A model generated the notes under the pieces. That model saw only the letters and a program-made list of their open reading frames with translations. It did no database searches and was not told where the DNA came from. A stretch of DNA of 64,000 nt from Hericium rajendrae (lineage: Eukaryota; Basidiomycota; Agaricomycetes; Russulales; Hericiaceae), in NCBI GenBank assembly GCA_033439255.1, contig CM065878.1, positions 310,001-374,000 on the forward strand, given 5' to 3'. Below are positions 7,586 to 57,400 of this stretch, one piece after another; within the stretch, counting starts at the first letter, position 1; each line of letters starts with the position of its first letter. A program made the position numbers and the translations under genes.

Positions 7586-8118
7586 CATCTGAAAAAACCA
7601 AATTTTATATAGCTGCAGGTTATGTTATGGGTACTATCATAGAGCTATATAAGCTATATACCTTGCTTATCTAGCTATGTAGCACTATGAGAGTCTTCAT
7701 AGCTTCTATAGCTGGGAGTACTAGCTATATAGTGTTATCATAGCTTTCATAGCTAGTAGTGTGAACTATATAATACTATCATTCTTACCAGGGTAAGCTA
7801 TGACTACTATTAAGGCTATCATGACTATGTCAAGAGGACAAAACATTGTAAAATTCAGAGTCAAAATTAATTACTTTTTTATCTACTACTACTACATGTG
7901 ATAGTACTACAACTATGACTGCATAAATTGCAGCAGGCCAGTGTACCAGAATGCACATAAGGAGTCCAGGGGAGGCACGTGCATGCAGTGTGACATGGCA
8001 CGCACGCAAGGCATGCATGCGCGAGGCAGTGGCTGTGCGGAGCAGTGGGTGTGCAAGGCGTCGCGGCCACCCGCGCATGCGCAGGACGGGCGGCCTGAAA
8101 GAAATTGAGTGTATTGAC

Positions 8119-8668
8119 ATGCCAGGCTTCGATGATCCCGGTCAGGGGGGGCGACGCGACGCCAAGCAGGCCACGCGTGACGCTATCATCGGCCTGCGGC
8201 AGCAGCTGCAGATGCTCGAGAAGAAGGAGGAGCACCTGCAGAAGAAGATCGAGGAGGACACGGCGAAGGCATGCACAAACGCGGTGTCGAATAAGGCTGG
8301 TGAGTGGGTCGTCCTTTGAGTCTCGGTGTTGTGGTTGTGCGGTTGTGGGTGTTTGTTTGCGTGTGTGGGTGTATGGCTATCGTCCTTGGATATGTTCCTT
8401 GGATAAGCCAGGACTTTAACAGCTTTTTTCTGCATATCGTCTCTCATATATTGAGGACTGTGAAATGCTGATTCTACATGCATCACAGTGGCAACCCAGG
8501 CACTCCGATGAAAGAAGATGAACGAGACTGAACTCAGCCGTATCGAGGGCGCCCGAATGCAGCTCGAATCACAGATGAACATGCTCGAATCTGCGAACCT
8601 CAACCTCGAGACCATGTCCGCCATGAAGAAGGGCTCCGACGCACTGAAGGTTCTTCACGGAAACATGT
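8119..8668 (+). pseudogene. SNF7: Captured SNF7/Vps32 (ESCRT-III) gene fragment, two exons
   Basis: SNF7 is the polymerising ESCRT-III subunit in endosomal sorting. Exon 1 (to 8301) encodes KQATRDAIIGLRQQLQMLEK followed by KEEHLQKKIEED..NAVSNK. A GT..AG intron (8302-8489) follows. Exon 2 (8490-8666) encodes VATQALR, then KKMNETELSRIEGARMQLES, ANLNLETMSAMKKGSDALK and a final HGNM ahead of a GTACGT donor. These match conserved SNF7 segments in order. The very N-terminus looks replaced (MPGFDDPGQGG) and the acidic C-terminal half is missing. CGA TGA at 8506-8511 puts a stop where the family has Arg-Arg. It lies wholly inside CATC-A, flanked by GC-rich repeat, with its intron retained, so it is a DNA-level capture and not the resident gene. 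Confidence 0.85.
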
Positions 8669-9651
8669 ACGTGCCTAATCCCCGCCTCCTGGACGTGAGG
8701 CAGTGCGAGGTGACACGAGGCATGCAGTGGGCGCGCGAGATGGGGTGGGCACGCAAGACATGGCAGGATGCATGAGATGTGGCGGGCGTGCGAGACGTGG
8801 CGGCAGCAGGTAGGAGGCGTGACAGCAGCGCGCGGGAGCTGGGGGACCATGCGCGAAGGGCAACAGCCCTGACAGGCCTCATGCAGCCCTGCATCATTGC
8901 GTGCACCTCACGCCTGCTTGTCGTACCTTGTGGGTCCCCACACACCTCGTGCTACCTGCCGCTCACCTCTCACCATCTCTCCCAAGCCGCGACACTTCAC
9001 GGGCCCACTTTGCATCCCACGCCACCCACTGCACGCTTTGTGTGCACGCGAGGTCCCCCGCCATGCCTCGCACGGCCTTGCACCCTCCGTGTCTTGCATA
9101 TGCCCCCCGCTGCACATGGTGCATGGGCCTCGTGCATTGAGCACGCCCCGTGTCTCCTGTGCGCAGGCCCATCGTGTGGCGTGGGCACCACCAGCGCGTG
9201 CATGGGAGTGCACATGTCCGGACCTCGTGCACGTCATGCATGATGTGGCAGGCCCGCATGCCCGAGGCGGAGGCGATAGGGACATGCGCGGGGTACGGCA
9301 TGCGTACACAGGGCCGCAGGCCCATGCATGATGTGCGCAGGGTGCACGATGGTCCCCAGCTATTGCGGGCCCATGCGCGAGGCATCGGGCAGCTGCGGGT
9401 CCATACGCAAGTCCTTAGGCTGCATGGGACCTGCGCACAAGGCACACGGTCGTGGGCAGGAGGGCGGGCAGGCAGAGCCACGCGCGACATGCGTGCACGT
9501 GTATGTTGGCATGTTGTCAATGGAGCTGGGCGCTGGAGGCAGGCGCTGGTGACGTGGTGACGAGGCAGCAAGGCGGCAAGGTCAGAGGGGATGGGGTGAT
9601 GGAGGAGGGACGAAGAGGGGACAAGGATGGGCGTGGGAGGACGAAGTCGGT
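8669..9651. repeat. GC-rich degenerate minisatellite core of CATC-A
   Basis: About 1 kb of G/C-rich sequence rich in gcatgc, gcacg and ccatgcg words with loose 20-30-bp periodicity. Long open frames occur on several strands only because stop codons are rare in such sequence. The same kind of core lies at the same place in CATC-B and CATC-C. Confidence 0.6.
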
Positions 9652-9683
9652 GAGAGTATCGCTCGAATTCGAGCGATACTCTC
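9652..9683 (-). ncRNA. Conserved hairpin downstream of the 5' splice site (CATC-A)
   Basis: Perfect inverted repeat: arm GAGAGTATCGCTCG, loop AATT, arm CGAGCGATACTCTC (14-bp stem). It sits 40-50 nt inside the predicted intron that starts at about 9733 on the minus strand. Equivalent hairpins occur in CATC-B and CATC-C with changed but still paired bases. The RNA role is inferred. Confidence 0.6.
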
Positions 9684-10891
9684 TGCATTAGCGAACATAC
9701 CAAATAAAAGAGCTTTTTTTTTTTTACTTACCTGTGTCCCTCGACTTCCTACGCGTCCCTCTCTGGTATTCGATTTGACGATAAGAGGGAGGGAAGGAAG
9801 GAGGAGAGAAGACGGAGGAGGAAGGGGGAGGAGTGAGGAGTGGTAGAGTTGAGATGAAGTTCGATGTGCATTTCGGTGCAGCAGCCACTGAACACACGTG
9901 CTCGAACATTTTTGAGCTTCGTAAATCAAATAAAATCGACTAAATTCTGAAAAAAAGGAGAGCACTATAATATACTCATAAAATACGACTGAATGAGACA
10001 GATATCTAATTACAGTTCTACGAGCTACTCGACAGCGAGATAAAGTTAGTGAAATCTGCGACTTAGCCTCTGATGCAGTGTCTGGCAGTGCCTGGGTCGA
10101 GTCACGGCAGCAACATTTCAGGCTCCACTCGCCACGTCTACATAAGGTGTGCATGACGTGCGACCTCTCTTTCCTCCCAACCACTACCATCTCTCGTTTT
10201 CGAGACTTCTCCCTCTGCTTCTTCGATGTTTTATTATCTTTAGTAAGTTCTTGATGTTCTTATGTTCTTATTATCACTAATATGATTATGTTATCAAGAT
10301 ATTTTCGCTTTTTTGTATGTTTGTTTGTAAGTCTGTTATATCTTTTAACTGTGACTCATACTAATCTTTCTATTTGTAGAGTTATATTTTCACTTTTTGT
10401 ATACTTTATATTATCTTTATTATTATCTTGACTAATAATAAGGTCTTATGAGGCCTATAAGAGTAGTGTACATCTTGTATAGTAGTGTTTTTCAAATAAT
10501 GATTTTCGATGTTTTTGTTTATTTCAAGACTAAGAATTCTTATAGACTATTGAGCCTATAAAATGCTTTATAATGTTGGAGTGCTTGTATAAGCTATCTA
10601 ATAAATGTATTAAGAAAAGGAGATGTAGTAGATATAGTTAACATAGCTTTGATAGCTCGATATAATAGGATAGCATATATATAGCTCATAGCTAACATAG
10701 CTATCCTCTTATACTATGATAGCTATGATAGCTACACCCTTGAGCTATGGCAGCTATAGCAGCTATGATAGCTCTATATAGATGGCTTTGAATCTATGGC
10801 TAGGCTATATATAAAAGAACACTGCTATGGACCTATCAGAGCTATGTAGCTGATATAGCTCTATATAACAGTGGTAATTTTTTCAGATGGA

Positions 10892-33666: not shown

Positions 33667-36044
33667 CTATGCTAAGTCGACATCACCTGCAGTGCCGACC
33701 TCAACTTCGACCCGCACAGAGTCTACATCTGCCACAGTGTTGTCATGGACTCCGTCGTTCTCGTTGACGTCGTCATCTTCGTTGTTGTTGTTGTTGTCAC
33801 CGTCATCTTTGTCATCATCACCTACCGATTGCGCTTCGAGCCACGCAGATAAGTCGTACTTGGTAGCTGACCACAGAATAGGAACATTGTACTTGAGGAG
33901 CAATGGCCGCCACCTTGCCACGCAAGAGAGTGCGAGGAGACTGTACATAGTAGCTTGATGCCGAGCATAAGCATCAAGGCCAGATCGGAGGTCAGCTCGC
34001 ACATTGTCACGATGTCCGACCCTATCCAACCACTCCTGTTCTTTCCACTCGAAAAACACAATGGAGCGCCACATCTCTTCCTGCAGCAATGCGACCTCTT
34101 CCTCCCAGTGCCTGACACTGGCATGGTTCGTGGCCCATTCAACTCACATACCTGCAGGAGTTATGCTAAGTCGAGGTGCATCGTGATGATGAGAAACCTG
34201 ACTTACTCTCGTGTACCTCGTCAACGGACGTGCCCTCACCATGAACTAGATCCCGAGTATCTTGTTGCTGAACTCACCAGATCCACGCAAGTTCTCGTCG
34301 CCCACGCCTGAGGCCTTCCTCCTGAGATGTTGGCACTCGAACATCTTCCGCCTTGAGCACTTGCAATTGAATACTCCAGTCGCCTCCCGGGTTGTGCTGA
34401 GTGAGAACCTTGTGCGCTGCCTGATATCTCGCCACGTATCGGTTGAGCTTCTCGGTCAGAGCCACAATCTGGGTGCGAGCGCATGTGTTCACCTTCTGGC
34501 CTGGGCTGTCGACATTAGCTTTCTTGTAGTGAATGAGCCCCATGCGCACACAGATCTGGCGGCGAACGTGATGGAGTGCATCATCAGCCTGCGCTTCTTG
34601 TAGTTGTGCCTCCTTGTTGAGCAATTCTTTCATGCCGGGTGAGTCGTGATATTGGGTCAGTAAATCGGATGGCAGCCAGAGCTTAGCGAGTTCGGGCTTG
34701 TTATCCATGCGTCGGCTGCTGGTGCCTTCTGCGCCATGTGAGTTGGGGTCGTCAAGGAGCACTGTCACGCAAGGCATATAAATGGCCTGAACCTGTCGCC
34801 AAGTAGCCATACGGTTCCGCAAAATGCTGCGCTTGTCGCCAAGTGCAGCATTCTTATTGCTTGTGGTTGCAGCACTCCTGGTTCGAGATCGAAGAATGCG
34901 CCTAACACGATCTACATCAGCCAATGTATCTGAGATACAGCATGGAGAATGTACTGTTGTTCCTCTAGGTCTAACCCAACTGTCAAGAAGACACTCGCAG
35001 TCATTTCATGGACAGGTAGCGTGCCCTGCGTCGCTTCCTCTGCTTCTTCTCGTTGCAGCTCACAGCGTACATCGGCCAATGTAGTGCCTGTAAAGGATCA
35101 GGCTTCATCCTGACTTCAGAAACGTATGACTCACTTTTTTCCTTCTCTTCGTATGGATTGGGATTCTTGGCTGATCGTTCATAGGTGAGGACCATGTCCT
35201 CTCAGAGCCTTGTATATTGTTTGGGTATCATCAGATAAATGTGTAAGTGGTACATAGCTCTATAAAGTCTATATAGATTTCATAGTTCCATAGCACTGCC
35301 CTTTTCTCTATAGCCAGCATAGCTAAAGGGAAATGCTATGTAGTGCTATGAAGCTAAAGGGTGATGCTATGAAGTGCTATGATAGCTATAATAGCTAACT
35401 ATATAGCTATGATAGTCTAGCTAGCTATGAAAGCTATAAGTGTCTATTAAAGCTATAAGGCTTATGTGTCTTATATATTCTACATTCAGTATGTGTCTCA
35501 TATATCTTACATTTAATATGTGTCTTACATATTCTATATTCAATATCATATTAAAGCAATAAAATCTGTTGAAACTATGAATATTTTTTACAGTCATATC
35601 AGAATTAGTAACATATGATCACACAAGTATAAACTATTTCAATGCATTAAGAGTATATTGATATCATGAAAACTACTACTAATTAAAAAGCAAAAACATA
35701 AGTAAGAAAGTAAGAAAGTAAGAAATAAGATAAGATAAGATAAGTAGTACAAGATAAGATAAGATAAGATAAGTAATCAAAGGTAAAAAAAAAAACATTA
35801 GTCTTGAAAGATAAAGATAACACATGAAAACTTACCAAAGTAACAAAAAGCGAAATCTGAAAGACAACTTAAAAGATATTAGTATTAGTATGAGCAATAA
35901 GAAAAAACAATGAAAGGTTACCTTAAAGACAACGAGCAAAGTAAAGAATGATGACGAGCAAGCAAAGCACGTCGACGAAGGCGTCGACGTGGCAAGAGAC
36001 AGTGGGAGTTAAAGAGCAAGAGGCAACGCGCATCACGCGAGCCT

Positions 36045-36050
36045 TATATA
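36045..36050 (+). promoter_or_regulatory. TATA box in the CATC-B leader
   Basis: CGCGAGCCTTATATACGAA is conserved with CATC-C (42190-42210) in an otherwise diverging region, which suggests a functional core promoter. Confidence 0.5.
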
Positions 36051-36476
36051 CGAATCCCGGGCGGAGCCGGGATTTGTGGTTGCCGGGCGCTTGCCGAGCG
36101 TTGTGTCAGAGACTGGGCGCTAGACTTTATTATGTTGATGCTGCTGCTCAGCAATTCACGGTGCAGTAGATACATAGAATCCTCATTAATTCTGGTTTAC
36201 TGTATGATCTATCATAGTATTCTTTTTCTCTGAATTGTTACGATTTTACTTGGTTTGTTAAAGCTCGAACAACGTAGCTTCGCTCGTTCGGTGGCTGTAA
36301 GCACCAAACGCGCGTCGAAGTCAGTCTTGTCCCTACCACCCTCACTCCCCTGTCTCGCCCGTTCGCCATCCCTCTTCTCGCTCCCATCGGATCGAACACC
36401 GGAGAAGGATAGTCAGATGCCGAGGGCCTCAAAGGTAAGTAAAAAAAGTCTCAATTCATCTATTCGTACTAATCTA

Positions 36477-36509
36477 GAGAGTATTGCTCGTTCGACGAGT
36501 GATACTCTC
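36477..36509 (+). ncRNA. Conserved hairpin downstream of the 5' splice site (CATC-B)
   Basis: Arm GAGAGTATTGCTCG, loop TTCGA, arm CGAGTGATACTCTC. The 14-bp stem includes two G-U type pairs where CATC-A has C-G pairs or their equivalent, so pairing is preserved in RNA but not in DNA. Confidence 0.6.
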
Positions 36510-36699
36510 GACTTCTTTTGTCCTCCCACGCCCTCATCCCCTCTCGCCTCCGACTGCTGCCTATCCCGCAACACCCTGCCCTCCGCCGACCTCGCCGCCA
36601 CGCCACCTCGCTGCCACGTCGCGTCGCTGCCACGTCGCTAGCGCCCAGCGTGTCGCCTCCAATGACCACAATCAGCGGAGTGCGCACGGTCGTCCGTGA

Positions 36700-37460
36700 C
36701 CCGGGATGGGCACGCCAGCGCACGCACGTCGCGCGGGGCCCTGTCCGTCCTCGCGACATCTACGCCATCGCGCCTCGCGTGCACGCCTGCCGCGTTGCGC
36801 ACGGGCTCGCGGTAGCCCGACATTTTGTGCCTGGCCCTGCGCCTCGTGCACGGCCCCGCCGCCCTCGACCCTCACCCATGCCCCTCCACGCGCCTTGCGC
36901 TTTCTGCGTGCAGGTTACCGCATCACGCACGAACCCGCGGCAGTCTAGTGCCTTGCGCACGGGCCCGTGGCTGCCCGATGCTTTGCGCACGGACCTGCCA
37001 CCCTCGACGCCTCACGCACGCCCTCGATGCCTCACGCACGCCCTCGGCGTCTCGCGCACAGACCCTGCGCCTCACGTGCAGGCTGCTGCCTCACGCACGA
37101 GCCCATGGCAACCCAGTGCTTCGCGCACGGGCCCGCCGCCCTCGACGCTTCGCCCACAAGCCCGCGGTGGCCCAAGATCTCGCGCACGGGCCCCGTGCCT
37201 CGCGTACAGGCCCGCTGCCTGGTGTACGGGCCCCGCACCTCCTGCACGCATGTCTGCCGCATCGCGCACGGGCCCGCTGCCATCCAGTGCCTCGTGCACA
37301 CCCCATTGTGCCTCGCGCATGGCCCTCCCGTCTCGCGCACGCAGGCCTGCTGCGCCTCGTGCGTGTGCGCCTCGTGTCACGTGCGTCAGCCAGTGCGCGC
37401 ACTCTCGTGTATGGGCCCCGGGCCCGCGACGGCCTCCCGCGCCGTGGATGCATGCCCGCA
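36700..37460. repeat. GC-rich degenerate minisatellite of CATC-B
   Basis: Repeated units close to 'cctcgcgcacgggcccgctg' with a period of about 25-30 bp. The long open frames here (for example 36518-37522) are arginine/proline/alanine-rich, exist on both strands, and are not regarded as genes. Confidence 0.75.
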
Positions 37461-40120
37461 TTGGCCCTAATTACTTATTTACTTTTAATATAGTAGAATT
37501 AGCTGTTGTTTATTACTCCTGAGCCCATAATTTAAATATATTTTCAACCTAGACAATTGGCTTAAGGTGCTCTTGCCTTAGTATATTTTGGGGTTCTAGG
37601 TATGGTATGATAGGAATCATAGCATTGATAGCAACCCTATAATGTTATATAGCTAGCATAGCTGTCACTCAAAACTACATAGCTCTATATACCCACCACC
37701 AACAGCTATAGAACCTATGATAGGTCTTATAGAGCTATAAAGCTGTGCTGCCAAAATACATAGAGTGCATAGAACTATCATAGGAGCCATATCATTGGCT
37801 GGAAGCTATGTAGAAAACTGATTTTTCTGATGATTGTCTCATTGAGGTCCTCGAATATCAATAGCTGTGTCTTCAGCTGCTCGAAAGCACCTTCGAGGGC
37901 AGTATGTAGCATGAGACCTTGATCAAATTGGTTAGCATGGTACAAGGCTGTCACTCAGCATTCGACATACGCAATTTTGTCATTTTCTGCCAGTTCACCG
38001 AACCAAAGATGTCGTTGAGGGTTTCATGTCTCGCCGCCGCAGACATTTCACGTGTGCTCAGAGCTGCAGGGTTGGTGAGAGCCCAGTTGCTCTCAATACC
38101 CTCGCCACTTGTACAGCCGACACCATGCATGTAGTTGAGTGAAAACGGGCCTTGACACTTTGCTCCATGTGCAAGCAGATGGAACTTTGGCACTGCCCAT
38201 CGGACTTGTACACCAGTGAAGTTGAAGCAGAGGGCGGGTGGCAACTTAGCAATGCGTGTGAAGAAATGGACCATGAATGAGCATGCAATGTCATATGAGA
38301 GAAGAAGCTGGAGGATGAATGCTGCTGTCAGGACGAGGGTGGAAAACACGGCATAGTCCATATTGCAATACCTAGCAATGTCTTAGTTAATATGTTGTTC
38401 GAGAGCGGAGGCATTGTATATGTGTACTGACCTCTCTCCGCATTGAAGATCAACCACGCCATGCTTGCAATAATAGCAATGTCACAAGCAGATAACAGCA
38501 CCAACGCCTGTGACTACAAACTGCTTCTGCGTCGCCACATTGGCATGGTCGATTGCAGAATGGTTTGAATCGCAGTGTTTCAGCTGCATGACAAATCAGA
38601 ATCGACATACAAAAAGATGCAGAGAAGTACCGCTTACCTCACATTCTGCTGCATAATTGGCTAAGTATGTTTGATAATTCTTCTCCTCGACGAAGTACGC
38701 CCAGCCGGATGCCAACTCTGTCTGTTTGTCTTTCTTCTTCTTAAGCTTGAGTTTGAAGTTAGCGTCCACCGCGAGCAGCAAGCAGTACATCCATCTATAA
38801 GAACATGAGTGAGGTCTGCTGCTGAACTGAACAAAAAGGTGCGCACCTAATCGACTCGGGCACATTTTCCCATCCCTCGGGTAGGTTTCGCCCGGGCTGA
38901 GGACAATGGGGACACTCAATGACCAGTTCGCCTTGGCTTGTCCCTTTCATGCCCGTCTTGTCATGTCCTCGCCCGGCTCTCTTTGCCATTAACAGGAGGC
39001 GATACATGCGCATCACTCGCATGAATTCCTTATAGCAATTCTGCACTGCTATCAATGGAAAGGTTGAAGAAAAGGAATGCAAGAGGACTGACCACAGGTG
39101 TGTGCAAACCAGTGCCATCATTGATGGCTGCGATTCTGTGATAAAAGTCGTAGGCATTTATCTTGCCCTGCAACGTAAGTTTGTGGAAGAGCCACAGAGC
39201 TGACAATGTGATGACTGTCTGCGGCCGATCGACTGTAGCTGGAAACCACCGAGCATGGAGAAGCTGCATGATTGGGAGCGAGGAGCCTAGGATATCGCAG
39301 CCACAATAATTAATGGCAACTTCATGGAATCCTGTCACATCCATTACTGTTAACGTCCCCTCATGCGGACACAGATGCGGGCAAGGTCGTCCATCGTGAC
39401 CCAGCTGGATGCGCAGATCAGCCTCCTGTAGCGTATATCTACAGAAGAGGCTGTCACGTCACATCTACCACCCATGCAAGGTTAGTCAAATCTCATATTG
39501 ATGATGCAGGATATACTTTACCTGCACATGATGAAGGGGAAGCGTCCTGTGCACCGAGACCATGCATTTCGCACAGAGAAGTTGTCCTAGGGTGCAATCG
39601 GTACATCGAAGAGTGCTGATCACTTCCTCGCAACCGATACACATCGGGGGGGTTTCAAAGCTACCGAGGCCCTCAAGTCACAGGAGCTCGTCAAGGTACG
39701 TGTCCTGCTCTGGGATCCACTCTTGGATGGGATCAATCTAATTGAGGGTCAGTTTGGACAGTCCCTTCTCCTCAAAAAAAAATGACGACTTACTCTAGGG
39801 CGAAATGAATCCATGTTGCAGACAATGATATCGCCCATGTCTATATGGTATGCATTGTCCTGCGGTATGTGTTGTTCTTCGCTTATATCTTCAGACGGCT
39901 CCAACGGAGCTATCTCGACTTCTTCATGGAATCATGTCCGCTGGGCTGGCTTTTGTTGTTTCTGCTGTGGAACATTGAGGGTGACATGTTGATGCAAGTT
40001 CGGAGGACGGGGAACAGTGGCGGCACCACAGGCAGGGAGGCGATGAGTAGGAGAGTCCGTTGCTCAGCTGGCACCCATAGGCACCACAATGGGATCGTTG
40101 TGCTTGTGCTTGCGGCCCAT

Positions 40121-41206: not shown

Positions 41207-42200
41207 GTTGGGGGAGGAAGGAGAGGACAAGCCTAGTGCATGCCACAGCGCGTGTCTTCTGCATCTGAGAAAATCCACATGGCTATAGAGCTCTATATAG
41301 ATTATATAAATGTCATAGGGCCATAGCTATGCCACCTATTCTATAGATGGCCATAGAAGGGGGTCATCTATAGAGTGCTATAGAGCTACTTAGGATAGCT
41401 ATAGAGTGCTATGATAGCTATAGAGCTATAAGAGATAGCTATGATAACTATAGAGCTACAAGACATAACTATAGAGCTATGAGAATAGCTATGTAGATTA
41501 TATTCACTACAGATACTATAGATGCTCTAGTGGTTACAATCAGCTGAGTACTCTACATATTTATAATAGATTACAATGTTATAATATGAATTTATACTCA
41601 TACTAGACTTAATAAAATTCTACACATATCTACATATTGACAAAGTAGACAATTTATGAAGATCACACAAAAGATAAAGAATAGCAAGATATTTTATTGA
41701 CTAACTACAACATAACAATATACTACAACATTATATTACATAATACAAGATAATAATATTAGGAACATCTAAGATAATATAGCATTAGTGAAGATTAATA
41801 TAAAACATTATAAGACTTGCCGTTACTACAAAAATGCGAAAATTACTAGAGAAAAAGATATTAGTATTAAAAGATAACAAAGATAACATATGAAAGCTTA
41901 CTAAACTAACACAAAAGCAAAAATCTACAAGACAATCTAAAGACATTAATATAAGACAAGACAAAGCTTACCTAGTAAGCATACAAAGGCACTGTAACAA
42001 GTATGAAGACATTAACACAAGACATAAGAGATTAGGAATATAAACTTACCTTAATAAATATAGCAACGATGAGCGAGTGAGCAACGATGAGGAGCGAGCG
42101 AGCAACGACGACGAGCGAACAAGCAATGACGACAAAGCGTCGATGTGGCAAGAGATGGTGGGGATTAAAGAGCAAGAGGCAATGCGTGTCGCGCGAGCCT

Positions 42201-42206
42201 TATATA
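42201..42206 (+). promoter_or_regulatory. TATA box in the CATC-C leader
   Basis: GCGCGAGCCTTATATACGAA, matching CATC-B. Confidence 0.5.
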
Positions 42207-42648
42207 CGAATTCCGGGTGAAGCCGAGAATCGTGGCTGCCGGGCATTGCCGAGCACCGCGTCAGAAGCTAGGTAATTAGACTTGGATATCTTCACCCTGC
42301 TGTCCAGGACAATACTGTATGCTTGCTACAACGATGGCTCATGTATCGTATTGATACACATAAAATATATTTGTATTCTTTCTTTCGTGTTTTTAGCTAT
42401 TTTATTTGATTTGCTATGTCTCTTTGCATATTCGGTGGCTGAAGCACCGAACACGCGTTGGGACTTGTCAACTTTTGGTCAACTCTCACCCTCTGTCTCT
42501 CATCCCTCCACCCTCCTCCTCTTCCCCTTTCTCCTCTTGTTTTCATCCTTCTCTTGCCAAACCAAATGAATTAGCAGGGCTAGCAGCAATGCAGAGGGGT
42601 TCAAGGTAAGTAAAAATAAGCTTTATCTTATGTCTTTCATACTGATCA

Positions 42649-42674
42649 AGTGTCGCTCGTTTTCGAGCGACACT
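42649..42674 (+). ncRNA. Conserved hairpin downstream of the 5' splice site (CATC-C)
   Basis: Arm AGTGTCGCTCG, loop TTTT, arm CGAGCGACACT. Compared with CATC-A the pair A-T within GTATCG/CGATAC is replaced by G-C (GTGTCG/CGACAC), a two-sided compensatory change. Confidence 0.6.
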
Positions 42675-42689
42675 CGTTGTTTCGACACC

Positions 42690-43810
42690 CTCACGCCCTC
42701 CATCGACACCCTCACGTCTTCCATCACCTGTCCCACGTCCCTGTCACCTCCTTCGCCATTAATCGCCCCCTCCACCTTCCCAACGACGCCGCCAACTCCC
42801 TCTGCTGCCCACGCACAACCCCAACATCCCTCGCTCAAACCTCCCCACCCTTGGCACCCCGGTACCCCCCTTCGCGCGCACGGCCACGGACTACGCACCC
42901 ACGGTGTTCCATGCCGTCTGTGTGCTGTCAGCGACGTGCGTGCAAAGGCCATGTCATCGGGCGTTCATCTCCACATGCTCGCTCAACGCCCCACGTGCTT
43001 AATGCCTCCGTCCGCCCATGACACCCCGTACACATGCAAACACCAGCATGTGCACGAAATCGCCCCGAATGTCCGCTCAATGCACCGCTCCCACACATGA
43101 ACACCAGCATATGTCTTCACCAGCGCATGGATGCCAGCCACGCACGCACGCGGCCTCGCACGGGCCTGCCCCATAGCACGGTGTGCGATGCTCCGGATCT
43201 GCCCCAAGCAACCCTGCTATTGCACGCTACCCCCAGGAAACATGCCCCATGCCCTGCGGTCTCCCCTCCCCCTCACACCCAGTGCTCGCATGCAACATCC
43301 GGCCCCGGACACGCGCGCCAGACCCCGCACGCGTGCAACACACCCTGCATGCGTGCACAATGCCGTGCCCACACGCCCCACTCCTTGGACATGCGCGCAA
43401 CACATCGGAAGCATGCCGCGCCTCTGACCTGCGTGCAACACTCCGCGCTCGTGCGCAATACCCAGTGCGTGTGCATGTGCACAATGCCGCACATGCTTGT
43501 GCGACGTCTGGCACGCATGCAAAATGCTTAGGACATGCACGTAAAATGCCATGCACTCACCCGCGACACCCAGCATGCCCGTGCCATGCACAGCATGCGC
43601 GCAGTCCGCTCAATGTGCTGCGCGTGCGCAGAACGCCCTGTGCACATGCCAATGCCACATGCCCGATCAACGTCCCCCGTGCCACCCCTCGCTCTTGCGC
43701 GCACCCTGCCTCGCTCTTGCGCGCACCCTGCCTCACTCTCGCGCGTGCCCCGCCTTGCCCTCGCATGCTATCTCGGCGCTCATGCATCCCGCCCCCGCTG
43801 GCGCCAGCGC
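42690..43810. repeat. GC-rich degenerate minisatellite of CATC-C
   Basis: About 1.1 kb rich in gcgcaacacacc, gcatgc and ccccgc words with loose periodicity. Overlapping open frames on both strands are not considered genes. Confidence 0.6.
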
Positions 43811-44210
43811 TCGAGTCATAATTAGATTTTTTTAATACTTTGTATTATTAAGTTATGACAAAAATAATATAAATGGATCTGACTTACCTTTGGTGTGAAT
43901 TATATCATGTGTATACTCTGAATAATGTGTATAGTTGTTGTATGTCCCATAGATGCCATAGTATATGGTTTATACTTATCAGATGATATAGATGACATAG
44001 GCTATATAGATTCTATAGCAAGTAGAGACATGTCCATAGCCTCTATAGCTGTGCTTACTACCTCTGTAGGCCTACATAGATAGCATATAAGGCTATGTAG
44101 TCTATATAGCTGCTATAGACCTATATATCTGTATAAGCTATGTATATAGCTTTCCATAGCTTAGATAATTGTGGCTGATGGCTATATAAATTTGGGATTT
44201 TTCAGATGTG

Positions 44211-46169: not shown

Positions 46170-46213
46170 ACTTGGTGGAAGAGGGCCAATGCTGTGCATG
46201 GCAAAACGATTCC
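46170..46213. repeat. Shared 45-bp repeat terminus, copy 3 (inverted)
   Basis: tggaagagggccaatgctgt then gcatggcaaaacgattcctt; the reverse complement matches the copies at 11384 and 14829. It joins the 'tgcatg' repeat directly, as copy 1 does. Confidence 0.6.
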
Positions 46214-46224
46214 TTTTTTTTTAT

Positions 46225-47424
46225 CATCAATGAAGCTATATAAATTACCATCATGTATGGCCATGTACAGGTATACTGACATCTTGCATGCAGGCCTGTA
46301 CCTCATGTCTTATACTTGGCATGTAGCATTGTGCTGGGGCCAGTGCCTCATGCATGCCTGCTACACCTCATGCCAGCTCACTATGCCTCATGTTCACTGG
46401 TCACACCCTATGCTGATCTACCACATCTCGATGTACCTTGTGGATGGGCCAGTGACAGCTTAGAGATGACTACAGCTGAATGTGAGCATGTCAGCCAGCA
46501 TAACTATATACATGCATTGTGTGTTGCTATGTGCAGGTGTGTCACCTGCCTGTACCTTGTGCCTCATGCCTCATACACAGACATACCAAGCCATGCATAG
46601 GCTTAGTGCCTTATGCATGCTCATCATGCTACACTACATCTTGCATACAAGCCACCATCCTATAGATGCTTACTGTACTTCATGTACAGGCCCACAGCAT
46701 CTTGACACTCTGCACATGCTTGCAGCATCCTGTGCATGGCCACCACACCCTGTTGATCTCCTGTACAAGCTAGTAGCAGCCTTACATATGGGCCTGTATG
46801 CCTTATGCTCACCCTCTATGCCTCATGCATGGCTCTCAATATCTCACACATCCTCACTGCACATTGCATCTTATATATAGGCCCACTACAGCTTAACATT
46901 GGTGAGCATGGCCACTGGACCTCCTGCACAGCTATGACACTTATCATGCCTTGTGCATGAACCTAGTGCCTTATGCACATATGTACTTTTGTTGTGCCTT
47001 ACCAGTGCACACATGCCTGCACATAGCTCTACCTGTACATGATGTGTACCATTGTGCATGTGTGCACTGTTTGAACTTGTAATATACTTGATTGTACTAG
47101 TAGCTATATGAAATATAATTGATTTTGGCTTTATATCTCTTGTACCTGATTGATCTGAGACAGTACTAATAGCAGAGATCATAGTAGGGACCATATAGAT
47201 CAGAGCAAGCCTTTGAATTTATATGATTTGTACAACAACTATAGCTATCCTTCAGAAACATGTAGCACTATATAGTGTCCAACTACTGTTATGATAGCTA
47301 TGATAGGCCTCATAGTCTTACATAGTTGAGAACTGTGGTGGCATAAATAGTGATAGACCTTATAGTGCTATGATAAAACATATAGATCAATACTGGGCTA
47401 TATGAAATTTCAATTTTTCAGATG
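46225..47424. repeat. 'tgcatg' degenerate repeat with gctatag tail; keeps an empty CATC-A site
   Basis: 46250-46560 is the inverted homologue of 7333-7585 plus 10892-11028. At about 46303-46310 (tacctcatgtct) it has the uninterrupted target of CATC-A. It goes on in loose tgccttatgcatg units to about 47060, then AT-rich gctatgatagc units, and ends AATTTTTCAGATG|AT, a CATC-type right end. A matching left end was not convincing. Confidence 0.6.
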
Positions 47425-51434: not shown

Positions 51435-52585
51435 AATCGTAATGAAAGAGGAAATGGTACTTCTCCATGCTCGGACTCTTCGACGTGATTATTCAATGAC
51501 AGTCCGCATGGCGAGCCCTCTATGCATCATATCGGATTTGCCTCGCGCTCGACAGCTATCCCACGGCCTACGAATGGGAGGGAGCTGGAGGGCCCGTTCG
51601 ATGAGGGGAGTGAACCACCTCCCGAGCCACCTCCGAGCTATGCCATGCACGAAAAAAAGCCCGCAAAGCTGCAGGGTCAGACCCACTCAAAGCGCGCTTG
51701 GGCCACCGAGCTGAAACTCAAGGTGCTCCGCACATTAGTTCCGGCACATCTTGAGGCCCAGCAGCAAATAAACTACCTGAGTTTTGGCCCGTGGCCTATA
51801 GTCAGTGGTTTAACGACTTCTCCCATACCGACAAGCCCCCTGAAGGCAATGCTCCACCTCTTCGAGAGGTGAGGATATTCCAAAAATTACTGTCCGCATC
51901 CTGGGGACTAATGAATGCGTCAAACGCGTTGCAGCACATCAAACAATGGTTCGGCAACCACTCGTCACGAAGTGTCCATGGTCAGACAGGCCGCAAGAAG
52001 ACTATAAAGTTCGGTGGCAAGCGCAAGCGCACCAAGGTGCAAGCATATCAGCACCTGTTCTGGGAGTCGAAGCTGAACATCAGGAAAAACCGGAGTTTCG
52101 CTAAATCAGGTGATGTGGCACTGATGTGCCTATAGAAGCACTGATGGTAACTACCGGTGTTCTCCGGCAGATACTGTAGCTCATCTCATTCTATGGTAGC
52201 CTTCTGTAGCTCTCTGTAGTTATACTTTATTTTCAATTCATTATATTCCTTGAATGTTTCTGAAAAATAAGTTGTGCTTGTGTTCATCATATAGTTTGAC
52301 TTCTTTGATGACTCATGTACTGTCACCACAAGTGACATGTCACATACATATGTGGCGTGCCTCTTGCAGCTCTCCACTCTACATTTATGTCCTAGGGCAA
52401 GCAAAGCACAAGTCAAGAAAAAATGTGAGTGTATCCAAATTATCTTGATTAACATCTTCTAGGAGGTTTAACAGCACATCAGCAATTTTGGTTATGAAAA
52501 GGTATGTGTGATTGATGCTCTAACTAACAATCTTATATCCTAGATTTTGATGTTGTGCACCAAGAAGTGCACCGATTTGCATGTA

Positions 52586-52953
52586 CTGTACCATTTCGGT
52601 CGTAGGCTCGCGGGGGTCTGAGTGTGACCGAAATGTTCATAGGCTCGTTTGGCTCATTAGGCTCGCCGGCCCATGTGACCCGTGACCGAGCCTAAAATAA
52701 TAGGCTCGTTGACCTTTGTACACCCTTGTATGGCTCCAAATCCTGGCCAAGAACCTCAATAGATGCTCAAGAGTGCCTTTCAACACATAATTATAGTCCC
52801 GCGGAGCGAAAAATTTTCTCCTAAGAAGATTTTTTACTTCCTCTTAAATTTCGTAGGCTCGCCAGCCTCTGTGACCCGTGACCAAAGGTCGAATAGGCGT
52901 GGCTCGGAGGCCTCTGTGACCTGTGACCCGAGCCTACGACCGAAATGGTACAG
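52586..52953. mobile_element. MITE with 25-bp TIRs and TA target
   Basis: CTGTACCATTTCGGTCGTAG begins the element and its exact inverse ends it, continuing to GCTCG; both sides are flanked by TA. 368 bp, non-coding, with GTGACC(C)GTGACC subterminal words. TA flanks suggest a Tc1/mariner-type source; a hAT origin is not excluded because the flanks are themselves palindromic (GCATGTA / TACATGC). Confidence 0.7.
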
Positions 52954-52959
52954 TATGTA

Positions 52960-53645
52960 CATGCGTTCGAAAGGTACGGATCACCGCTTTCTGGAACACT
53001 AAACATATCTCCGGTGTGTTTCCTTGTTGTAACGATATTCCAGAAACATGTTTTGGCTGACAGTTTTAGGGATTTCATTCTAGTGGCTCCAGTTTTGCAG
53101 CTACCAGGTCGCATGATGGCTCGTTTGAAAGCTCTTGATGAGCTCTTTCCAACACGCCAAAAAAAGTCTGCGGTACGTCCATTCTTCGCTATGATACAGC
53201 CCATTCTTGTTTAGAGGGGCGATTTTTAGAAGTTCTCAGATCGGGTCATGCATGACACCGTTCGAAAGCTACGATCAACCGCTTTCCAGAACAGTTGAAA
53301 CGTTAGCGGTGTGTTCTCTCGTTGTTGAGATAGGCCTGAAACAATATTTGACCTCCATTTTCAGAGATTTTGCCCCTATGGGACGAGTTCTGCCCCTATC
53401 ATGGGGCATGAGGGCTTGCCCGAAAGCTATTGATTAGTGCTTTCAGATGGTTTAATCAGTTTCGTGGTGCGTGCAGTATTCAAGGCACTATGCCACTTTT
53501 TGTATCTACTAAAGGTCACCCATAGTGTTCGGGCTATAGTGCCTTCAATATTCAACGTATCACATCGTATAGGGCACCATTCGAAAGAGACGAATTACAC
53601 GGTTCGAACGGTACTAAGTACGTGCTAATCGGTTAAGAATTGATT
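52960..53645. repeat. Degenerate tandem repeat in CATC-D (about 280-bp unit)
   Basis: cgttcgaaaggtacggatca at 52966 and accgttcgaaagctacgatc at 53259 start similar units that share ggtgtgtt(t/c)(c/t)c(t/c)(t/c)gttgt; a third, weaker unit starts near 53578. Non-coding. Confidence 0.5.
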
Positions 53646-54149
53646 GTTGTAGAAGAGAAAGGGAGATCTGTCAGGGGGACCCAGACACTCTCCCATGCCC
53701 CTTTCAGCTGCGACGCATGCAACTAAGGAAGACAGATTGCCAAATATAGCAATCTTATTTTTGCCAGTACAAAGTAAATATAAGTTGATGTAGAACTAGC
53801 ATTACTAGATGTTTTAAAAAAACTTGTAAATAGTGTAACTTACGATGTATTCTGCAAGGGAGCAGAAACCAGATTGCCAAATATGGCAATCTGATTTCTG
53901 CCTTTGGTGTTGTTTGGCCTCAGGACTTGCCAGCAACGCGCGTCGTCTTTACCACTCTTCCTCACTCTCTCCTCACTCTCTCTCCTCATCCCTTTTTTTC
54001 TTCTCTTTCTTTTTCTCTTATATTATTGTAAGTCTTTTTTTCTTGGCTTCTCATTTCTTTTCAGGCCAGTTTGGTGCAAGAGGTGGCAACAAGAACGTAA
54101 AAGGTAAGTTAATTTGTTTGTATCTTAGAAGCTTCAGTACTGATGTGTA

Positions 54150-54410
54150 CGTCTATCTGCCCACCTATATGCTTGCCCACCCACCTATCTACTCGCTTGT
54201 CCATCTGCCCGCTTGCTTGCCCACCCACCTGCTCACTTGCTCACCCGCTCACCCGCTTGCCTGCTCACCCACACTTGCTTGCTCGCTCACCCACTTGCCT
54301 GCTCACCTGCTTATCTGCTTGTCCGCCCACCCACATGTCTGCCTGCCCACATTGCTCACCTGCACATCTACATGCCTGCACCCTGCACCCTTGCATGCCC
54401 CCCTTATATA
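54150..54410. repeat. C-rich minisatellite of CATC-D
   Basis: Units near 'ctgctcacccgcttgcccac', about 20 bp, directly downstream of the splice-donor consensus, in the same position as the GC-rich cores of the other CATC copies. Confidence 0.75.
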
Positions 54411-57400
54411 CATAGATGGGTTGTAATAGTATAGATTAGAGTACTTAGTTTTTTTGTAGTTAATACAACAATGAGAATATTGAATGATCTGATTTATTAA
54501 ATTTGTGTGAAATAAACTGCTAACATTAGTAGTCTATGCTTAAGTTTGTAGAACTACTATAACATGTTTGGTTACTACAGTAGAAAGATCCTCACTACAA
54601 GTCACTACAGAAGCCACCGTAGAAGGGGGGGTTCCTATGAGTACTACAGGTACTATAGGATCTACAGGTGGCTACCGTAGACTACAGATTGCTACTGTAG
54701 CCAATGGTAGCAACTTCAGTTTTTCCAGATGAAGGATGTGATCGTGCCCGAATACGAAGCATACCATGCTGAGGAAGTCAAGCAGGGCAGGATGCCCATG
54801 CACAGTACTCCCTGGCACACCAAGCGTGCCGGAGAACTCCTATCCGATGAGTCAGATGAGGTCAAAGAACAGGTCACAAAGGCCATGGATCCCGATTTTG
54901 AATTGATCCAGGAGTTTGCTGAGATTGGCGAGCACGACAAGGCTGAGATGGCAAGACTGGTTCAAGCTAAAAAGTACCAGGAGTAAGTGTTGTTCGCTGT
55001 GATCGTGAAAGAAGAACTAACCTGTTCTAGTGCCATTGACGCGTTTCCGCACACAGCGGCAAATCTCTCACACAAGCTCGCAAACAGGACTGGGGGTGTT
55101 GTCACTATTTTGTTCGGTGCACCTGTACCTGCGAGTTCCGGGAGATTGGAAGTGTTTTCGTGAGTAACTCGTGATCGAACTGGATGATGGTGAACTTACC
55201 TATTGTATTAGCATCCATTCGGGCGCGAGCGACGGGAGAATGTTTGGCGCGGCATACAAGGACTATGGGGAATGTGTTGAGAATCCCTTCCTCGTGTTTC
55301 TTCGTAGCCTCTATCGTGAGTATGCTATTTATTAGCCAATGACCGTGACTTACGATATACTTCAGCACCCTCCATCTGCCGTGAGCGTGATTTGACACCG
55401 AAAAAGGATCAAGTCGCCTCCTCGGAGGCAAATGGCCAGCCGGCTGCTGATGTGTGGACCCTGGGAATGGAGGTGGCAGCCAAAACCAAAACCAACAGAG
55501 TACCGGGGGTGCGAGGGGACCAAGTATCTCAAGTGAGGAGTGGGGTGAGGGCAGCTGAGGGTCACTGCAGCAGGAACAATGGAGCGATGGGCTCGCTAAG
55601 GGTGAGGCTGAGGCGATCTGGTGATAAGGGGCTGGGAAGGATGGGGAACGGCTGTGGAATGACAAGGAGAATGACGAGACACACAGGTCTCTGATACGAC
55701 GGACTGATCCTAGAGAAATGACACTAAAGAGGGCGGACTTGTCTAAAGTCCGGAGAACGATGAGAACAACAGTGAGAGAGACTTCTGAGGTCTGTGCTCT
55801 GAGGGGGAAAGGTGCACTGAGGGGTTCTATTTGAAGCTGGGACTCTGTCTACCATACAAGTAAGAAACTCGCCCTTGGCGGTCTCGGGCGATCTTGGACT
55901 CGGCTGCTCTATGGTACATCTATGGTCCGAAACCATCAAAAGGCGGCATCCAGGCATCCTGTACAACACAGACCCGGTATCATAATGCCAGCAACCTGAT
56001 TGGCTCACCAAAACCGCTGAGGACGATCTGGAACAAACTTGAGGAAACCTCGGTGAGGCCTGCAGTAGCTGACAACTCCTGAGATGAGGGACATCACTGC
56101 TCTGAGCAAGGTTGGTGGGTGAGGAGCTGGAAGCTGGATGGGAGTGAAGGGGAACTGCATGGGAGATGGTGAGATGAGGTCTGACGTTGCTGAACACAGC
56201 TTGAGGCATATCACCACGTCTTCCAGCAGAGGTGCTACAGCTGCCCCCATGACTATCACTCAATCCACACGAGTGACAGCAGGGATCGACAGCGAGGATG
56301 GTGCGACAATTACACAGAACGAGGCAACGGTGGATGAAAACGATGGTACTACGGCGGCCCAGAATCCAGCTGAGGACAGCACGACAGGGCAGGAAGCCGA
56401 AGATGATGCCGCGGGAGACGAGACAGCCAATGAAGCTGCCACAGCCAAAGCAGCTGACAAAGCTGCCACAGCCAAAGCAGCTGACAAAGCGGTTGCGAAG
56501 GCTAAGGCAGTCACAGCTGAAAGGGTGCAAAAGAAAGCAGCATGGCGCAAGAAGAAAGCGGCATGGCGCAAGAAGAAGATAGCGAGGGGGGAGTACACCA
56601 TTCGCAAATCGCCATATGAGTTGGAGCATGACAGGAATATCGCCAAGATACAGGCGAAGATGAAGGCGTGGAACATCCCCACGGCCAGCAGCCTCTTTGG
56701 ACCGAAAGAGCGACAGAAAAAAGGGAAGGGGAAGGGGAAGGAGAAGGGAGCAAATGACAAGTAAGTGACTTCAGCGGCAGGTGAAGAACAATACTTATCT
56801 TAACTGTGCCAGGGGCAAGGGGAAGGATGTTGTTCCCCCAACAGATGACGAAGAAGCTGCAGATGGCACAGAGCAGGAGGACGAGGACGAGGACGAGGAG
56901 GACGAAGAGAAGGACGAGGAGGATGGCGATGCAAATACGAAGGCTGGTGCCATCAATGTTGATGTCGAAGGCCTGCCAAAATGGATGGCAGAATAGGTGA
57001 AATACCTGGTGGGCAGAGCGCCTGATGATGACTGGCAGGAGGTCGTCAAGCTCTGGATGAAGATAGAAGAAAGGCTGGGCTTCGCAGACAATAGAGTGAG
57101 TGATTCTGTTATTCATGAGTGACTGCGGTACTTATCTGTCCACAGAGCAACCGTTGCAAATTGCTGGGCACCAATCGGCCTCTTGAAGTTCCGGCGTGGC
57201 AGAAGGACGGCCGCCCGTTCAATGAGATGCCGAAGGTCGAGAATCTGGAGCAGTACGCAAAGGGTTGGCTCCCGTGGTGGTGCAGTTTGCAGCCTGCATC
57301 GCGAGGCAACGTCTGGCCGCTTCAACGCACTGTAGACGCTAATGAGAGCTGGGCGGCATTGAGGAAGAGTGGTAAAAATGGGTTCGGCCTGATCTTGATG

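Follow-up and report, generated by a model that had tools for sequence, protein, structure and literature searches.

CATC-ended elements of Hericium rajendrae, one of them inserted into a KDZ transposase gene, are very probably non-autonomous PlavakaB transposons

In a stretch of 64,000 nt from the basidiomycete Hericium rajendrae (contig CM065878.1, here C1, positions 310,001 to 374,000), an element with CATC and GATG ends, named CATC-B, lies within a gene for a KDZ transposase. To which kind of transposon does it belong, and which transposase moved it? In the following, the window is this whole stretch, C1:310001-374000, its position 1 being C1:310001, and coordinates without a contig name refer to it. 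We consider it very probable that CATC-B (E2) and the other window elements CATC-A (E1), E3 and E4 are non-autonomous PlavakaB cut-and-paste transposons, moved by the Plavaka transposase of coding relatives.

CATC-B is 2,604 bp long (35229..37832), starts with CATCAGATAAATG at position 35229 and has the end pair CATCAGATAAAT...ATTTTTCTGATG; its 15-bp left end has 23 matches across the genome. It stands between the two copies of the target duplication AT (35227..35228 and 37833..37834), which were read directly in the sequence and recovered by the pair scoring described below. The interrupted gene is on the minus strand. Precisely, a profile search placed its KDZ transposase domain at 37993..38787, as two separate PF18758 matches (C1:347993-348373 and C1:348419-348787, that is, 37993-38373 and 38419-38787), and the joined frame gave the downstream portion severed by CATC-B at 35004..35228, with a stop at 35202. 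When the flanks were fused keeping one AT, the translation (...FEDLNET|IPKQYTRL*EDMVLTYERSAKNPNPYEE) was open across the junction, the stop following soon after, while fusing them with both ATs or with none produced a frameshift. The joined 100-aa KDZ sequence, with an X at the stop, was searched against the organism's own genome and gave 16 matches. Uninterrupted paralogues at C2:2830257-2830538 (79% identity) and C7:3042565-3042846 (76%) span query residues 6-99 of 100 as single stretches, through the junction, and weaker copies cross it as well; the window's own halves were recovered as two separate matches. At the DNA level, the C2 paralogue is gapless against the joined site at the junction, the sole 3-base gap being elsewhere. 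Since the frame is joined with one AT and the paralogues are uninterrupted, the insertion of CATC-B into a KDZ transposase gene is genuine and its 2-bp duplication is real. The initial annotation had placed the element between AT and AT in this transposase and had proposed that removing it with one AT restores the frame, and it was exact on both points; its proposal that the TGA at 35202 derives from a CGA ancestor found no support in the C2 paralogue, which does not show CGA. KDZ transposases are abundant in this genome (172 matches).

The terminal motif of the family as a whole is approximately CATCWGRWAAAW, and 41262 has one of its variants, CATCTGAGAAAA; the motif first suggested, CATCAGAWAAAT, fits CATC-B only. 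Matches of CATCWGRWAAAW in the 46.8-Mb genome number 486 on the forward and 475 on the reverse strand (961), against 38 and 32 (70) for the reversed pattern considered as a control, as expected of the transposon family with CATC ends that had been claimed. In the window alone, a pattern allowing one mismatch is mildly enriched (18 matches against a shuffle mean of 8.8, with 2 of 100 shuffles reaching 18), and it is the duplications and the genome counts that carry the proof. The pair analysis was made from 100 of the 961 motif places, all on C1. Among these matches listed, 62 are within the first 636 kb of C1 (counted by eye), where the window lies, and 21 of 33 adjacent convergent pairs are spaced 2.4-4.0 kb, against 4 of 34 divergent ones; if all spacings below 6.2 kb are admitted, the difference shrinks to 24 convergent against 13 divergent pairs.

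Target-site duplications were scored in 25 end pairs, precisely the 21 spaced 2.4-4.0 kb, the window pair 41262-44208, included although one of its ends departs from the motif pattern, and three of twelve longer pairs (5,446, 4,894 and 7,033 bp), the scored set leaving aside the other nine, of 6.1 kb and longer. As a control we considered 600 mismatched flank pairs. Exact agreement over 2 bp was found in 22 of the 25 pairs against 60 of the 600, agreement over 3 bp in 1 against 10, and agreement over 4 bp or more in none of the 25. Homology with E4 sets the true left end of C1:631297-635219, which is among the 22, at C1:632929; this pair is therefore false, and its replacement brings the count to 21/25. 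The remaining duplications are AT, AA, TA, GA, TG, AG, CC and TC; TA occurs in only two pairs and there is thus no TA rule for the target sites. The four window copies have the duplications first reported for them, namely AT (E2), TG (E3), GA (E1) and AA (E4). Beyond CATC/GATG the outer flanks vary among copies, except that the end at 47424 and five other places share theirs, because there a CATC fragment rides inside another amplified repeat. Hence two doubts raised in the initial annotation, that most copies might have no duplication or a longer one and that the ends might extend past CATC/GATG, are both answered in the negative.

The coding relatives were recognised by the Plavaka transposase domain PF18759, which like KDZ is abundant here, with 132 matches genome-wide (matches and not genes, exons being counted separately). 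We read 8 kb around C4:1130047, in a group in which the domain is split into 1-99 and 106-325, and there the end CATCTGGAAAAAGTGT lies downstream of the domain, at a distance of 1.6 kb. This 16-mer, with up to one mismatch, has 67 matches in the genome against 1 for the control, and paired exact CATCTGGAAAAAGTGT ends enclose PF18759 matches in three elements of about 12.4 kb: C4:1119862-1132277 (12,416 bp, flanks TG/TG), C2:3857472-3869885 (12,414 bp, TC/TC) and C2:25000-37414 (12,415 bp, CA/CA). These are copies coding for a transposase, of the kind that the initial annotation had proposed to look for. A fourth copy of this type, on C7, has only its right end visible. A second coding lineage is represented by C4:1700591-1710662 (10,072 bp, flanks CT/CT, PF18759 inside), with the ends CATCAGAGCC and CATCAGCAAAGGCC (CATCAG); an end of this 10-kb lineage, CATCAGCAAARGCC, sits 2.4-3.5 kb downstream of 8 Plavaka matches, as paired by eye. 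PF18759 was confirmed on open reading frames of both C4 elements and the C2 elements were assigned by match position; the sequence read comprised the ends of both C2 elements, and the ends and the right 6 kb of the 12.4-kb C4 element. Between 16 and 24 bp of an end of the 12.4-kb elements recur in two elements for which no PF18759 match is listed: C1:214368-218102 begins with CATCTGGAAAAAGTGT and has the duplication AA, and the end at C1:1247274 equals the first 24 bp of the left end of the C4 element. Both flanks were read for six Plavaka-bearing elements in all, and four of these have a 2-bp duplication.

In the transposase of the 12.4-kb C4 element (L095:3739-4995) the motifs SDKT (16), ADYPEQ (122), CPKC (138), HSLVH (341) and NTEMFE (360) follow one another, in an order that fits the D, D, C(2)C, H(3-4)H, E pattern, the catalytic D and E being picked by eye; this pattern is given for the transposases of the CMCT clade, which joins Plavaka with EnSpm/CACTA, Mirage, Chapaev and Transib, in PMC12730594 (December 2025). 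The best-scoring outside protein with an organism name is from Dentipellis (67% identity). Beside the transposase there is a match to the Ulp1/C48 protease (L095:210-572, minus strand, 26.6 bits with a cut-off of 20.7, E 6.5e-6), and the element seems to carry such a gene; it also has a DUF6830 match, below the cut-off for that domain.

Several other candidates for termini or for autonomous copies were discarded. CATCAGGAAAT, found near the domain in many of 20 Plavaka loci, is an internal motif and not a terminus, because the copies, compared by eye, have it at one fixed position near the domain. The long C1 pairs 2721181-2726626, 4213008-4217901 and 611957-618989 have no listed Plavaka match, and the last, which mixes two subfamilies, contains an integrase-like reading frame (copia-like by eye). 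C1:622208-635523, at first taken as the autonomous partner, is a Plavaka relic, with CATCAGGAAAAACC ends and a broken domain but no duplication, and it recurs on C11. Between C1:622208-635523 and C11:37882-51197, near an end of C11, the identity is 99.9% over 13.5 kb or more, a stretch that contains this relic with two nested E4-type elements. On C3, a Plavaka match (L055, C3:1368106-1368975) stops beside a CATCAGAAAAA end and continues only after 3.3 kb (C3:1372234), which would fit the insertion of a CATC element into a coding relative; one end was read.

The transposase domain, the termini and the duplication together place the CATC family in PlavakaB, the termini deciding between PlavakaB and PlavakaA; this assignment is drawn from sequence features. 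In PMC12730594, Plavaka is divided into PlavakaA (TGT..ACA, 2-bp duplications) and PlavakaB (CATCA..TGATG, 2 or 3 bp). Here the coding members (the three 12.4-kb elements and C4:1700591-1710662) have PF18759, the termini are CATCWG...CWGATG, a small departure in that the fifth base is A or T, and 2-bp duplications are found in the corrected pairs and Plavaka-bearing elements counted above. The family is therefore not new and is of a known kind: the kinship with Plavaka or CACTA that the initial annotation had considered was right and is narrowed to PlavakaB, and the CATC end that it could not recognise, although real, had already been described (PMC12730594). As for other sources, PMC8290104 reports a characterisation, in a supplementary figure, of the terminal inverted repeat motifs that KDZ and Plavaka elements have in Marasmius oreades, and the passages of PMC9674265 considered add nothing on the termini.

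Because the ends are shared with coding copies, we infer that the non-coding elements are mobilised in trans. A Plavaka (PF18759) DDE transposase, from the 12.4-kb relatives or from other CATC-ended Plavaka elements, would recognise CATCWGRAAAA ends and excise the non-coding element; the latter would enter a target of no fixed sequence, cut with a 2-bp stagger, giving rise to a 2-bp duplication, and CATC-B would have entered the KDZ transposase gene by such an insertion. Which coding lineage serves which non-coding subfamily can be proposed only in the same conditional sense.

Some observations weigh against this assignment. The published PlavakaB consensus (PMC12730594) is CATCA and the 12.4-kb family has CATCT. 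No transposase gene with the exact ends of CATC-B, CATC-A or E3 was found in a search that was not exhaustive. No duplication is present at C13:69303-80424 (TG/AG), a sister of the 10-kb C4 element, at the relic C1:622208-635523 (AC/GT), at the corrected nested pair C1:632929-635219 (AT/CT), or at C1:114281-116977, C1:1243729-1247274 and C1:611957-618989. The pair L060 (AT/AT) is less secure, its right flank being common to the amplified repeat.

With these points in mind, we weighed the possibility that the window elements are a new, unrelated transposon superfamily with a transposase of its own not yet seen. It would agree with the fact that E1-E3 and the coding copies are alike over no more than about 12 terminal bp, and with the absence, by exact pattern, of their internal block (treated below) from the two C2 coding copies; it is very improbable, given that Plavaka-bearing elements of the same genome have like termini and the same 2-bp duplications, and that 16-24 terminal bp are common to these and to some elements in which no Plavaka match is listed.

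Non-autonomous derivatives are common among CACTA/EnSpm elements. That the window elements are classical members of this group is slightly less probable still: CACTA/EnSpm is a relative within the CMCT clade and has CA..TG ends, yet these are CAC..GTG and go with 3-bp duplications (PMC12730594), whereas the elements here end in CATC, have 2-bp duplications (agreement over 3 bp being limited to 1 of 25 pairs) and have PF18759 as the domain of their coding copies. Finally, a coincidental origin of the AT/AT flank and the CATC ends, to which the mild enrichment of the loose pattern in the 64-kb window might point, can be dismissed in view of the genome counts, the pair spacing, the duplication rate against its control and the empty sites in paralogues.

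Assignment to PlavakaB is very probable also for the other CATC elements of the window, which were delimited by pair scoring and alignment. E1 (7586..10889, 3,304 bp) is inverted relative to E2, and E3 (41262..44208, 2,947 bp) is colinear with it; the identity among the colinear elements E1, E2, E3 and L060 is about 58-68%, E4 (CATC-C; 52078..54731, 2,654 bp) and parts of L059 being less similar. A near-copy of E4 nested in the Plavaka relic has 98.1% and 99.6% identity over two aligned parts, which suggests recent movement. A one-ended CATC fragment at 46170..47424 was recognised by comparing repeat copies. The amplified repeat that bears it, from 46170 to beyond 48924, is 97-100% identical at six compared places, all on C1, and carries the fragment plus its flank. 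In the four copies with the boundary read, CTTGGTGGAAGAGG is preceded by differing sequences, so another mobile element seems to have captured and multiplied the CATC fragment.

What do the non-coding elements contain? The block common to E1, E2, E3 and L060 combines a TATA-like box, recognised by eye, with a short exon, a signal of GTAAGT type and then a hairpin; most of them have a CTAAY signal as well, and an AG overlaps the start of the hairpin, whose commonest form is GAGAGTATCGCTC-loop-GAGCGATACTCTC. In E2 the block is at 36040-36509, with a predicted 43-nt intron, GTAAGT...TACTAATCTAG, at 36435..36477 (predicted from the sequence and from similar signals in diverged subfamilies) and the hairpin GAGAGTATTGCTCG-loop-CGAGTGATACTCTC at 36477..36509, both on the plus strand. 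E1 has the same hairpin as a perfect palindrome (9652..9683, minus strand), while in the corresponding hairpin of E3 both arms are changed, AGTGTCGCTC/GAGCGACACT (42649..42674, plus strand). E4 has no such hairpin.

We considered the stems of seven diverged copies chosen by a fuzzy motif (E1, E2, E3, L060, L015, L068 and L069); L061, whose hairpin is farther from the 5' signal, was aligned but kept outside the count. Paired changes keeping the base pair occur at 5 of 13 stem pairs, in one copy each, and against covariation there are 5 mismatched and 2 wobble cells among 91. The G-U wobble in the E2 hairpin was dropped as a proof of RNA pairing, because CpG decay yields the same changes and copies with a C-A mismatch exist. 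Genome-wide, the main form has 190 and 195 matches on the two strands against none for the reversed control, perfect palindromes being counted twice and the pattern fixing most of the stem. The E3 form was found at 49 places (control 0), all 49 with the matching partner although an unmatched arm was allowed; its two changed arms may go back to a single event that many copies inherited. Of the 29 main-form hairpins on C1, 13 are inside a convergent CATC pair of less than 6 kb (4.9% of jittered positions) and 22 are inward of a CATC end within 2.6 kb (13.9%); conversely, 13 of 23 such convergent pairs hold one.

By exact pattern, the main form is absent from both C2 coding elements, C1 and C2 being fully listed; for the 12.4-kb C4 element the check for the main form covered the right part. 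The E3 form, with all places listed, is in none of the three 12.4-kb elements nor in the 10-kb C4 element, and the fuzzy motif gave no match in L095, in the relic (L062-L063) or in the read pieces of the 10-kb elements. For the RNA fold of 36413-36530 (118 nt), z is -2.9, Rfam gave no match at gathering scores in 30001-60000, and E2, L015 and L068 have no common reading frame after the predicted splice (by eye). Our search of the Plavaka literature, with supplements outside its scope, found no description of an intron-hairpin block.

Tentatively, and with more doubt than confidence, we propose that many non-autonomous PlavakaB elements have in common a small and probably transcribed unit that selection maintains, either as a non-coding RNA or as a protein-binding palindrome, as the joint change of the hairpin arms would suggest. 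It would comprise a TATA-like box, a short exon, a 40-60-nt intron (GTAAGTAAAA, CTAAY) and the hairpin at the 3' splice site, and be missing from the coding elements checked. If so, the unit would help the element to be expressed, silenced or mobilised, and its bearers would not be plain deletion derivatives; the puzzle is why a transposon parasite keeps an intron and a palindrome that the checked coding elements are without.

The locus thus leads to a genome-wide demonstration, for PlavakaB, of ends, 2-bp duplications, an empty site and coding partners, and connects a large body of non-coding repeats with the transposase by which they are probably moved. Among known systems, Tc1/mariner elements duplicate TA and Mutator elements 5 bp or more. 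The former is seen here in 2 of 25 pairs only, and no pair agrees over 4 or more bp, as would be required for Mutator, hAT or KDZ; the initial annotation was right to set the family apart from Tc1/mariner, hAT and Mutator. For hAT and KDZ, duplications of 5 bp or more are published (PMC12730594). KDZ elements (Kyakuja/Dileera/Zisupton) are abundant in the same genome, one of them providing the gene that hosts CATC-B, and differ in their 7-8 bp duplications and in an unrelated transposase (PMC12730594). PlavakaA has the same 2-bp duplications and a Plavaka transposase, but its published ends, TGT..ACA, are not those of the CATC elements (PMC12730594). PlavakaB, whose termini were first reported only in December 2025, agrees in PF18759 in the coding copies, in the CATC(A)..(T)GATG termini and in 2-bp duplications without a fixed target (PMC12730594); unlike it, the family described here has A or T as the fifth base, paired ends on C1 that are mostly 2.5-3.7 kb apart without a Plavaka match, and, in many copies, a predicted intron and a hairpin.

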